From contig NZ_JRKM01000001.1 of NCBI RefSeq assembly GCF_000768065.1, positions 1,426,001 through 1,490,000 of the forward strand: DNA of 64,000 nt, in the 5' to 3' direction. The notes below the pieces were generated by a model. That model worked only from the letters and a program-made list of their open reading frames with translations. It was not told the origin of the DNA and ran no database searches. This DNA comes from Aquabacterium sp. NJ1 (GTDB taxonomy: Bacteria; Pseudomonadota; Gammaproteobacteria; Burkholderiales; Burkholderiaceae_C). The translations under genes were made by a program, and so were the position numbers. This document shows, one piece after another, positions 34,411 through 39,400 of this stretch (positions are counted from its first letter, which is position 1; each line of letters opens with the position of its first letter).

Positions 34411-35262
34411 TCAGGCCTCCTGAGCGGCCACTTTAGCGCTTTCCTCCGCTTCTCGATACAACAGGATACGTTTTCGCTCGATGCCCCAACGGTAGCCCGA
34501 TAAAGCGCCATCGTGGCGGACCACGCGGTGGCAGGGGATGGCCACGGCCAGCGGGTTGGCAGCACAGGCGCCGGCCACCGCCCGCACGGCTTGCGGCGAG
34601 CCGATGCGCCTGGCGATCTCCGTGTAGCTGACCGTCTGGCCCGCTGGTATGCCCCGTAGGGCTTGCCACACGCGTTGCTGGAAAGCGGTGCCGCGGATGT
34701 CCAGCGGCAGAGCCAGGCCCACCTGGGGGGACTCGATCAAGCCGACCACCTGGGCCACCCATTGCTCGAAACCGCGGTCGGCGCCGATGAGGCGGGCCGT
34801 GCGGAAGCGGTCTTGCAGATCGCAGACCAGCGCCTGCGGGTCGTCGCCCAGCAGGATGGCGCACACGCCTTGCGCACTGGCGGCCACCAGCACCGCCCCC
34901 AGCGAGCATTGCCCCACCGCGAAGCGGATGTCCTGCGACGCCCCGCCCGCCTTGAACTGGCTGGGCGTCATGCCCAGCACCGCCGTGGACTCTTCATAAA
35001 AACGCCCGCTGGACGAATAGCCGGCGTCATACATGGCCTGCGTCACCGCCGCGCCCTGCGCCAGTTGTTCGCGCACACGGCGAGCCCGCTGCGCGGCGGC
35101 ATAGGCGCGGGGCGTCAGCCCGGTGTGGGCCTTGAACACCCGCAACAGGCGGCTGGGCCCCATGCCGGCCATGGTGGCCAGCTCATCCAGGTGCGGCGGG
35201 GCGGCGGCGGCCTCGATGTACCGGCACAAGGCCACCACCATGTCTGTGTCTGCGTCCGACAT
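34411..35262 (-). CDS. Ada-like AraC regulator / O6-methylguanine-DNA methyltransferase lacking the Zn domain
   Basis: A 283-residue fusion of an AraC-type DNA-binding domain (about 5-105, with LDELATMAGMGPSRLLRVFKA) and a suicidal DNA alkyltransferase (about 110-275). The latter has the IPCHRVV active-site cysteine at C244, AVAGACAANP and YTEIARRIG. It removes methyl groups from O6-methylguanine. The N-terminal zinc domain of E. coli Ada, whose cysteine takes methyl groups from phosphotriesters and switches on transcription, is missing, so the regulatory trigger must differ. Its stop is followed one base later by the solute-binding protein start, forming one operon with that gene and the hybrid kinase. 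Confidence 0.9.
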   Translation of the reverse strand: MSDADTDMVVALCRYIEAAAAPPHLDELATMAGMGPSRLLRVFKAHTGLTPRAYAAAQRARRVREQLAQGAAVTQAMYDAGYSSSGRFYEESTAVLGMTPSQFKAGGASQDIRFAVGQCSLGAVLVAASAQGVCAILLGDDPQALVCDLQDRFRTARLIGADRGFEQWVAQVVGLIESPQVGLALPLDIRGTAFQQRVWQALRGIPAGQTVSYTEIARRIGSPQAVRAVAGACAANPLAVAIPCHRVVRHDGALSGYRWGIERKRILLYREAEESAKVAAQEA

Positions 35263-35459
35263 GTCGGTCAGAAAGTGTTGTGAAGGCCCTCACTGTAGCC
35301 ACATGCGAGGGCGGCCACACTCCGTTTTTGTCGTCCAGCCATGCACGCGCCCAAAATCGCCTGTTGGGCGGTCCGTGATGGTTGCGCACGGCAACGGCCC
35401 ACATTCGATTTGCAGAAATAACCTGGCGTTCGGTCAATCTGCGGCCATCATTTCACCTC

Positions 35460-36272
35460 ATGTCCACCCATCAATCCTCGCCCACTCTGACCGTCTGGAT
35501 CGCCCATCTCGACGAATGCGTGACACCAGGCGCACTGGCGGCCTGCAGCCGGTTGCTGACGCCGGCCGAAGCCGAGCGGGCCAGGCGCTTTCACTTCCAG
35601 CGTGACCGTGATCGCCATGTGGTGACGCGTGCCTTGCTGCGCACCGTGCTGGCCTCGATCGTGGGCGAGCACCCCGAGCAGTTGCAGTTCGCCACGGGGC
35701 CGCACGGCAAGCCCTTCCTCCAGCATGACAGCGACATCGGGCGCAGGCTCTCGTTCAGCCTGTCCCACACCGATGACCTCGTCATGCTCGGCGTGACACA
35801 GGATCACGCCTTGGGCATCGACGTTGAAAACACGACCCGGCTGGCCCCGCTGGACGTGGCGCACCGCCAATTCGCCGAAGTGGAAGTCAAGGCCTTTCAA
35901 GCGCTGACACAAGCGCAGCAGCAAACCGATCTGTTCTGGTCTTGCTGGACGCTCAAGGAAAGCCTGATCAAGGCGACCGGCGAAGGCCTGCACACCCCGC
36001 TGGACCGTTTCGGGTTCAGCTTTGACACGGACGATCGCGTCACGCTGCATGCCTCGCCAGGCACGGCCGAGGGCGCGGGGCACTGGTGGGTGGGCCAGTG
36101 GGCCCCCACCGAACACCATCTGGCCGCCTTGTGCATGGCCTGGCCAGCCGCGACCTCGCCGGACGGCACCCAGGCGCCTGCCGTGCGCGCGCGCCGCATC
36201 GTCCCGCTGCAAGGTGAAACCGATCTGTCGATCCAGTTCCTGCGCAGCACGACGGGGCGCCACCCCGCCTGA
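35460..36272 (+). CDS. Sfp-type 4'-phosphopantetheinyl transferase
   Basis: A 270-residue enzyme that moves the phosphopantetheine arm of coenzyme A onto the carrier-domain serine of peptide synthetases. The magnesium-binding motif GIDVEN (D121, E123) and the W-x2-KES motif (WTLKES, K166, E167) are both present, and the length is that of the Sfp/EntD-like class rather than the short AcpS class. ATG 35460 is chosen over the in-frame ATG at 35382 because conservation begins at TVWIAHLDE. It is divergent from the Ada-like gene and lies 212 bases upstream of the giant synthetase on the same strand, whose eight carrier domains it very probably activates. Confidence 0.93.
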   Translation: MSTHQSSPTLTVWIAHLDECVTPGALAACSRLLTPAEAERARRFHFQRDRDRHVVTRALLRTVLASIVGEHPEQLQFATGPHGKPFLQHDSDIGRRLSFSLSHTDDLVMLGVTQDHALGIDVENTTRLAPLDVAHRQFAEVEVKAFQALTQAQQQTDLFWSCWTLKESLIKATGEGLHTPLDRFGFSFDTDDRVTLHASPGTAEGAGHWWVGQWAPTEHHLAALCMAWPAATSPDGTQAPAVRARRIVPLQGETDLSIQFLRSTTGRHPA

Positions 36273-36370
36273 TCCAGGCACGCCCACCAATGCCCGGTGC
36301 GCCGCCCGGGGCATGTCGCGATTGAACCCCTATTTCCGGCCCATGGCGCCATGCCTCATGACAAACCCTC

Positions 36371-36404
36371 TGCAAAGATGACATGTATGTTTGTCAACAT
36401 TGCA
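36371..36404. promoter_or_regulatory. 34-bp imperfect inverted repeat upstream of the peptide synthetase
   Basis: Left arm TGCAAAGATGACA (36371-36383) and right arm TGTCAACATTGCA (36392-36404) are reverse complements at 11 of 13 positions around an 8-base AT-rich spacer. It lies between the phosphopantetheinyl transferase stop and the synthetase ATG, 80 bases before the latter. Low G+C arms without a T-run argue for a dimeric-regulator operator rather than a terminator. No clear -35/-10 pair was identified next to it. Confidence 0.5.
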
Positions 36405-36484
36405 GTGTCGCCCCCCTGAACGGCCTGCACACCCTCCCGCGCGACGCCCATTGATTGATTTGTGTGCGTCTTGGCTTCACGCGT

Positions 36485-39400
36485 ATGGATGGTTCTGTTG
36501 TCGATTCCTTCGAGCAAGTTGGACGTGCCTTGCCCGCCTTGATCCCCTTGTCTGCTGCACAAGGCGTGATCTGGCTGGATCAGATGGTGAACGCCGGCCT
36601 GCCCTGCTACCAGATCGGCATGTGCGTGGACATCCAGGGCCCATTGGATGTGGCGATCCTCAAGCGCGCGATCGAGCACGTTGCCCAGTGCCACGATGCC
36701 TTGCGGCTCGCGCTTGCGCCGGCGGACGCGGGCTCACCGGCATCCCAGGGGCAGCCTCAGTGGTGCGTGCTCGACACCGTGGCCGTGCACATGCCCGTGG
36801 TGGACCTGCGCGAACAGCCTGTGGCCGCCATGGCCGCCGAGCCTGGCCAACCAGACCGCGACCGTGCACTCGCCTTGGTGCAGCGCACATTCAGCAGCCC
36901 CGCCCCTTTGCACGCCGGCATCCCGCCCTGGGACATGCTGGTGGTGCGTTATGCCGAGGCGGGTTATCTCTGGATGCACCGCTACCACCATCTGGTCATC
37001 GACGGCTACGGTGTGCCCATGGCGGGGCAAGCCATGGTGGAGGCCTACAACCGGCTGCTGGCCGGCCAGTCGCTGGCTGGGCATGAGGCACCGTCCTACA
37101 CCGAGCTGCTACCGGCAGAGCAGGCCTACCGCACCTCTGCCCGCCACGACAAGGATCTGGCCTTCTGGCGCCAACGCTATGCCGTGCTGCCCCCGGCGCT
37201 GCTGCCGGCGCGCCATGCCCAGGCGTCTGGCGAAGCCCCCGGCAGCGGCAAACAGGTATGGCAACTGCCCCGCGCCCTGTACGACCAGGTGACGGCCCAT
37301 GCGGCCGCACGCGGGTTCACCGTTTCGCACTTCCTGCTGGCCCTGATCCACACGGGCCTGTCGCGCATGCACGCGGTCGACGAGATCGTCATCGGCGTGC
37401 CCGTGCACAACCGCACCACGCCGCGCCAGCGCCAGACCATCGGCATGTTCGCGTCGATGAACCCCATCGGCGTGCCGGTGGACCTGCAGCGGGACTTCAC
37501 CGCGCAGATGCAGGCCGTGGCCGATGAGCTGCGGCGCTGCCTGCGCCACCAGCGCCTGCCCATCGCCGACATCAACCGCGCGGTGCAACTCGGCGCCACG
37601 GGCCGGCGGCAGATCTTCGATGTGAGCTTCTCTTTCGAGGCCTTCGATGCAGATGTGAGCATGGGCCCTGCGCGCCCGCGCTTCTGGACGCTGCACAACG
37701 GCCATGAGCCAACACCCCTGGCCATCGCGGCCAAGGACTACCACCGTGATGAAGGCCTGCTGCTGGAGTTCGTCTTCAACCGGGCGCACCTGGATGAAGG
37801 CGAAGTACAACGCTTGATCGGGCGGCTGGAGACAGCCTGCCTGGCCGTGCTCGACGGCTTCCAGGGCCCGGTCGCCAGGCTGCCACTCATCCCGCAGGCC
37901 GAGGCCCATTTGCTGCAGCGCTTCAACGACACCAGCGTGCCGTTTGAGGATGATGTGGCCATCCACACGCTGTTCGAGCGCTGCGTGGCCCGGCATCCCG
38001 ATCGCATCGCGCTGGTGTGCGATGGCGCGCAACTCAGCTACGCCGACCTGGATGCCCGCGCCAATCAACTGGCCTGCCAGTTGCAGCAAGGATGTGTGCA
38101 AGCCAACAGCCTGGTGGCCATCGTCATGGGGCGCAGCACCGAGCTGGTGGTGGCCTTGCTGGGCGTGCTCAAGGCCGGTGCCGCCTACGTGCCGCTGGAC
38201 CCGGATCACCCCCAGGCACGCCAGGCCGAGTTGCTCGATGAAGTCTCGCCCAGCATGGTGCTGGTGCAGGAGGCCTGCCTGTCAGCCCTGCCTGATTGTG
38301 GCTACCCGATCATGGTGCTGCCACCGGCAAAGCCCGATGCAACCACCGAAGCGTTGCCACAGGCTTACCCCGCGGCAAGCGATGCATTTAGCGCACGCAG
38401 CCTGGCCTATGTCATCTTCACCTCGGGCTCCACAGGGCGCCCCAAGGGCGTGATGAACGAACACCGTGCCGTCGTCAACCGGCTGGTGTGGATGCAAAAG
38501 GCCTATGGGCTGGAAGCCGACGACAGCGTGCTCCAGAAGACCCCCTATGGCTTTGACGTGTCGGTCTGGGAGTTCTTCTGGCCCTTGACCACAGGTGCCA
38601 GGCTGATCATGGCCAGGCCCGACGGGCACCAGGACCCGGCCTACATCGCGCACGTGATCGAAAGCAGTGGAGTCACCACCGTGCACTTCGTGCCCTCGAT
38701 GCTGCAGGTTTTTCTGGCCGACCCGGCTGCGGCCCGCTGTACCGGCCTGCGCCGCGTGATCTGCAGCGGTGAGGCTCTGCCCTGGGCCCTGCAGCAGGAG
38801 GTGCTGTCGCGCTGGCCCGGCACACAGCTCCACAACCTGTATGGCCCCACGGAAGCGGCCATCGACGTCACGGCGTGGCCATGCCGCCCTGCGCCTGCGC
38901 CGCGTCCTGATCAACTGGTGCCCCGCGTGCCGCGTGTGCCCATCGGCAAGCCCATCGACAACATCCGCATCCACATCCTGGACGACCTGGGGCAAGTCGT
39001 GCCCATCGGGGTGCCGGGGGAGATCCACATCGGCGGTGTGGGTGTGGCGCGCGGCTATCTGGGGCAGCCCGAGCTGACGCAAGCGCGGTTCATCCCTGAT
39101 CCCTGGGCCAATTCATTGACCGGGCCATCGGCGCCCGACGCCCAGGGCAGCCGCCTGTACAAGACCGGCGACATCGGCTGCTGGCGCGAGGATGGGGCCA
39201 TCGACTACCTGGGGCGTGCAGACCACCAGGTCAAGATACGCGGCCAGCGCGTGGAGCTTGGCGAGATCGAGCACCATCTGCTCAAGCACCCTGGCGTCAG
39301 TGATGCGGTGGTGGTGGCTCACACCGCCGCAGCCGATGGCACACCGGGTGAGCAGCGCCTGGTGGCCTACGTCGTGCCCCAGGCAGGCACGCAGCACCAA

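Follow-up and report, generated by a model that had tools for sequence, protein, structure and literature searches.

We analysed a stretch of 64,000 nucleotides from Aquabacterium sp. NJ1 (the window; genome G000) in which a giant nonribosomal peptide synthetase (NRPS) gene is preceded by a short inverted repeat of low G+C content. A search with the N-terminal 400 residues of the synthetase against 61 genomes found two orthologous synthetases of similar size in the same genus, in G003 (68%) and G019 (61%); the best synthetases outside the genus were those of G043 (43%), G696 (42%) and G658 (39%). The features at the locus are as follows.

34411-35262, minus strand: gene with an AraC-type helix-turn-helix and an O6-methylguanine methyltransferase part (Ada-like), which in G003 adjoins the element in divergent orientation.
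35382-36272, plus strand: 4'-phosphopantetheinyl transferase gene, absent from this place in G003.
36356-36406, plus strand: block conserved with G003, 49 of 51 positions identical.
36363-36396, plus strand (towards the synthetase gene): composite cis-element AAACCCTCTG-N6-TGAC-N10-GTCA, with the same layout in G003, in G019 and at 15 lipase genes.
36363-36372, plus strand: AAACCCTCTG box, in which AAACCC and the final TG are invariant in 18 of 18 collected sites.
36370-36405, no strand: inverted repeat of the earlier note, as delimited by repeat detection in the window.
36379-36396, no strand: TGACA-N8-TGTCA dyad, the proposed TetR dimer site, with TGAC-N10-GTCA intact at 3/3 synthetase promoters.
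36485-64000, plus strand: nonribosomal peptide synthetase gene, which runs past the window end and encodes a terminal thioesterase domain.

The start codon of the synthetase gene (ATG at 36485) agrees with those in G003 and G019, and the product contains four plus four AMP-binding stretches together with condensation and carrier domains ahead of the thioesterase. The earlier note had described a gene of 27 kb; it is indeed giant but longer than that, with an open frame of 9553 codons that ends ~1.1 kb beyond the window.

The inverted repeat consists of two arms of 14 nt each (36370-36383, CTGCAAAGATGACA, and 36392-36405, TGTCAACATTGCAG) separated by a gap of 8 nt and complementary at 12 of 14 positions (86%), which bears out the earlier description of 13-bp arms with 11 of 13 matches around an 8-bp spacer. 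The distance of 80 bases to the synthetase start also holds, as the interval 36371-36404 ends 80 bases 5' of the ATG, and so does the claim of low G+C, which is 35% in this interval against 66% for the window and is matched by only 0.1% of 34-bp segments. Symmetry alone is no proof, because shuffled sequence of 64 kb gives palindromes of equal quality as often: with arms of 13, at least 11 matches and a spacer of 8, we observed 3 repeats in the window against 2.3 ± 1.0 in 30 first-order Markov shuffles of the 64 kb, and with the same arms and spacers of 0-20 we observed 42 against 49 ± 10. When the 212-bp intergenic region alone was shuffled 2000 times, such a repeat arose in 0.2% of cases at a spacer of exactly 8 and in 3.9% at a spacer of 0-20. 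Significance of the palindrome by itself was therefore rejected, as over the window it is no rarer than chance, and we take the repeat as real because it is conserved, not because it is palindromic.

Both orthologous synthetases found carry the repeat upstream, which is the comparison that the earlier note had proposed. In G003 the conserved block stands between diverged flanks, the neighbouring segments agreeing with the window at 12/40, 21/40, 15/40 and 4/37 positions (counted in ungapped register and hence a lower bound), and in G019 the upstream copy is diverged but recognisable and retains AAACCCTCTGACAAGTTGACAAGTGAATTGGTCAACATC. The three genomes share AAACCCTCTG-N6-TGAC-N10-GTCAACAT, the element ending 88, ~91 and 128 bp ahead of the start codon. 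The conserved site runs from 36363 to 36396, and to 36400 among the synthetases, so that it overlaps the interval first proposed (36371-36404) with its borders shifted. The outer CTGCA/TGCAG arms were rejected as part of an operator, one being broken in G003 and both in G019, and the AAACCCTCTG box, which precedes the dyad by 6 bp, is conserved as well as the dyad itself. The two synthetase upstream regions of G043 contain no such block.

The transferase gene upstream offers a further comparison. In G003 the element sits between the divergent Ada-like gene and the synthetase gene, with no phosphopantetheinyl transferase gene there, and the synthetase therefore requires its own promoter in this genome; this bears on the objection, raised in the earlier note against the site, that transcription might start upstream of the transferase gene. 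A scan of positions 36200-36520 found no sigma-70-like promoter and no terminator.

The earlier note also pointed to regulator genes nearby and to a TetR-, LysR- or LuxR-like dimer as the binding protein. The gene order NRPS, tetR, MacB/FtsX permease is found in 3/3 genomes (G000, G003 and G019), with the TetR gene directly behind the synthetase in each. In G000 the tetR ATG lies near 1491130 on G000:C1, ~14 bp past the NRPS stop codon, just outside the window and ~29 kb downstream of the site. The G000 TetR shares 86% identity with its counterpart in G003 and 50% with that in G019, the helix-turn-helix segments of all three are near-identical, and TetR_N (PF00440) is recognised with 35.5, 35.6 and 24.6 bits against a cut-off of 24. 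A LysR gene follows macB in G000; the proteins scanned downstream in G003 (3) and G019 (6) included none, and no LuxR or LuxI was found among the flanking proteins scanned. TetR is the best of the three candidates, its gene being conserved behind the synthetase, and the site is a predicted operator for it. With this TetR as query at E 1e-25, matches among 399 genomes of the order came from two genomes (G000 and G039, up to 6 candidates being scored per genome), and a plasmid collection gave 22 records, with identities of at most 31.6% among the 20 listed.

Some further genes of these clusters deserve mention. The MacB/FtsX-type permease (L037:3923-5086) has no ABC ATPase domain in the same protein, and the ten ORFs scanned downstream gave none either. 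An 843-aa ORF (L037:8416-10944) downstream of the operon combines a flavin monooxygenase-like half with an alpha/beta hydrolase half; a CHAT-domain gene (L037:13424-17068) is found downstream of the G000 cluster, and a C13/caspase-like peptidase gene (L039:10002-10943) near the end of the G019 cluster.

The element is also found away from synthetases. We collected TetR homologues in 42 genomes of the genus and fetched 40 stretches covering 48 matches; AAACCCTCTG was found beside several of these homologues, and a scan with AAACCCTCTG-N17-TTTGTCA gave the same spacing. Behind these elements lie genes for secreted lipases (two were scanned and match PF03583, the rest were assigned by similarity). 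In a set of 36 close lipases from 27 genomes, 56-100% identical to the G004 query, the element precedes 15 genes with at most 2 mismatches in 17. Five others have a variant with 4-5 mismatches that is without GTCA (G020, G028, G000 and the second lipases of G003 and G019), and the remaining 16 have at least six mismatches, near the 7-8 of mononucleotide shuffles. Nine of the 15 element-bearing lipases directly adjoin a TetR homologue, divergently in G004, G014, G016, G035, G062, G022, G003 and G019 and on the same strand in G032; each of the five G004-type genomes has a second copy, which accounts for five more, and the last (G010) lies on another contig in a genome with a TetR related to that of G032. 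Where read, the element stands ~67-82 bp before the lipase start.

A fitted pattern, derived from the very sites it recovers, gave 19 matches at up to one mismatch in the 42 genus genomes, 18 of them known sites and the other a one-mismatch match at G005:C14. In total there are 18 sites in 11 genomes, before two unrelated types of target. A window-type pattern at up to one mismatch found only the window's own match in 399 genomes of the family, of which six belong to the genus (G000 included), and none in the 393 genomes of other genera. AAACCC, TG and TCA do not vary across the 18 sites, nor do orientation and internal spacing; the element is asymmetric and faces its target gene in every case. 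G004-type sites have a weak left dyad half (TGCT/TGCG, 2/4 matches). Several lipase promoters have a TAATCG/TATCGA-like stretch ~16-17 bp after TTGTCA, from which it follows that GTCA could overlap a -35. At a TetR paralogue in G000 the adjoining lipase is gone and the element has 5 mismatches, a decay that is expected if the element serves the lipase. There, at L062:6531-6700 (G000:C1 near 3149030), the element and a remnant lipase leader are recognisable beside the TetR gene, and an acyl-CoA dehydrogenase-like ORF follows on the opposite strand.

Other matches were set aside. The combination GAAACCTCTG...TTTGTCA in G004, G016, G035 and G062 (L132, L134-L136) was taken as a coincidence, as it lies in another inverted repeat with no lipase behind it; that repeat, GAAACCTCTGCACACC...GCAGAGGGTTTC after TGTGGATAA, is conserved in the four genomes (L132, L134, L135, L136). 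Matches at G000:C1:605236, G036:C30 (one mismatch), G036:C9, G033:C123, G003:C28, G032:C1 and G018:C26 do not stand before a lipase or NRPS gene.

The dyad recurs in another branch of the TetR group. Seven of the 48 TetR homologues, all of one other branch, are immediately preceded by a pair of exact TGACA-N8-TGTCA sites spaced 27 bp apart, where ~0.007 exact sites would be expected over 120 bp at 48 loci from the rate in their own genomes. These pairs are an independent hint that TGAC-N10-GTCA is the sequence recognised by TetRs of this group. In G000 the pair (G000:C1:3923813-3923857, L064) lies before a TetR gene (G000:C1:3923893-3924543) that is divergent from a flavin monooxygenase-like gene, and the same-branch TetR in six other genomes has the same pair. 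This locus resembles the synthetase promoter in having the exact TGACA-N8-TGTCA before a gene and differs in having two sites, placed before tetR itself, with no AAACCCTCTG found nearby. In a second branch, sites with one mismatch occur at five loci (TGACAATGGTCAATTTCA at four of them, a variant at the fifth, in G025) and may represent a different arrangement; one more one-mismatch site occurs at G003:C5. The homologues closest to the TetR of the window have no TGACA-N8-TGTCA at up to one mismatch upstream of their own start. At L062, L065, L066, L067 and L085, two or three TetR homologues lie within a few kb, one of them with a second-branch site.

To relate the element to the regulator phylogeny, we compared the TetR branches with the presence of the element. 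The synthetase TetRs share a clade (support 0.99) with the TetRs of the element-bearing lipases of G022, G003 and G019. The G004-type TetRs are elsewhere in the tree; their 5 genomes hold 10 of the 15 lipase elements, 5 of which have the TetR beside them. The TetRs of G032 and G010 form a further branch, so that element-linked loci span at least three TetR branches. In a close sister clade of the lipase TetRs (G001, G017, G029, G034, G063) no element was found in the fetched stretches, and element-free lipases lie ~2-5.5 kb from other-branch TetR homologues at G001:C6, G029:C15, G030:C2 and G008:C84. These three observations speak against a simple pairing of element and regulator. Among the 27 lipase genomes, element-bearing lipases occur in 10/12 with the linked TetR branches against 0/15 without them (Fisher p = 8e-6), or in 10/16 against 0/11 (p = 0.001) if the sister clade is counted in; these P values are a guide only, because the groups were defined post hoc in a set of related genomes.

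In autoregulated operons, operators of the TetR family are palindromic dyads at the promoter, and the operon encodes the TetR along with a transport-type protein. The synthetase locus is similar in both respects, with a dyad at the promoter and an operon containing a TetR and a transport-type protein, and differs in that the dyad is combined with AAACCCTCTG and the regulator gene lies ~29 kb downstream, behind the giant NRPS gene. The site has the dyad symmetry of an operator at the target promoter, with TGAC-N10-GTCA kept in the orthologs, and tetR lies inside or beside the operon that would be controlled (3/3 for the NRPS and 9/15 for the element-bearing lipases). That two unrelated targets, NRPS and lipase, both have a TetR of this group as neighbour counts for a TetR operator. 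On this comparative evidence we consider it probable that the repeat forms the core of a TetR-family operator, the gene of the regulator being second in the controlled operon. A TetR dimer would most likely occupy TGAC-N10-GTCA, at a position that overlaps the promoter or precedes it, and would block transcription of NRPS, tetR and macB, presumably a single operon, until a ligand releases it; the position of tetR inside the controlled operon would create a feedback loop. Related TetRs of the genus would use the same composite element before secreted PF03583 lipases. If TetR binds, the balance leans towards repression, the usual behaviour of the family, and activation retains an appreciable chance in view of the constant orientation and the AAACCCTCTG box. 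By analogy, from the lipase link and a weak resemblance to FasR, the ligand may be lipid-like. Among the papers listed, titles and abstract openings gave no description of the site, an absence that is not proof that it is unpublished.

The conservation of AAACCCTCTG equals that of the dyad, and a dimer on the dyad leaves it unexplained, which counts against a simple TetR model, as do the weak left half-sites of the G004 type and the GTCA-less variant at five lipases. As a tentative extension drawn from sequence comparison, the element might be a two-part switch, in which a TetR dimer on TGAC-N10-GTCA is combined with an obligatory second contact at AAACCCTCTG, made by a second TetR dimer or a co-activator. 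It would define a genus-specific regulon, joined by the NRPS cluster with its own copy of the regulator, in which related and possibly lipid-responsive TetRs control both the secreted lipases and the NRPS product.

A variant of the operator reading, sharing its probability, has TetR bind as an activator with AAACCCTCTG as the second contact. PMC7382501 describes FasR as a mycobacterial TetR-family activator of fas-acpS that senses long acyl-CoA and acts through inverted repeats that it binds. FasR is the best NCBIfam match for 4/5 TetRs scanned (35.8-45.8 bits), though far below the cut-off, and ranks fifth for the other (29.2 bits); the FasR equivalog (NF053731, cut-off 330 bits) is reached neither by the TetR of G000 (40.7 bits) nor by that of G019 (45.8 bits), which speaks against a FasR proper. 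The likeness thus extends to the TetR family, the weak best match, inverted repeats at a promoter and a possible lipid context, and the targets differ. The lack of a good -10/-35 in 36200-36520 and the constant orientation and internal spacing favour activation, but the vast majority of TetR regulators are repressors according to the same paper (PMC7382501), and we regard this variant as possible but doubtful.

We judge it unlikely that the element is a promoter or activator site of an unlinked factor (another sigma factor, or a quorum or global exoproduct regulator) serving lipases and synthetase, with the TetR as a passenger. Such a factor would suit an asymmetric, target-pointing element whose invariant AAACCC, TG and TCA recall a composite promoter more than a pure palindrome, the possibility that GTCA belongs to a -35, and the linkage to TetRs of more than one branch. 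It is opposed by the two unrelated target types, which have in common both the element and a TetR of this group next door, by the contrast between lipase genomes with and without the linked TetR branches, and by the other TetR branch, whose genes are immediately preceded by dyads of the same geometry. That the palindrome arose by chance and has no function, as the shuffled sequences would allow, is contradicted by its conservation in G003 and G019 and by its distribution across the genus, and is very improbable.

The element, read as a TetR operator, is of an ordinary kind, and its comparative support is unusually good for a single palindrome. An isolated palindrome becomes a small predicted regulon of 18 sites in 11 genomes, with two unrelated targets and one regulator group. 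It provides a concrete way towards activating an uncharacterised synthetase, which has eight adenylation-domain matches, and it gives a hint that the product of this synthetase may be made under the same kind of signal as the secreted lipases.
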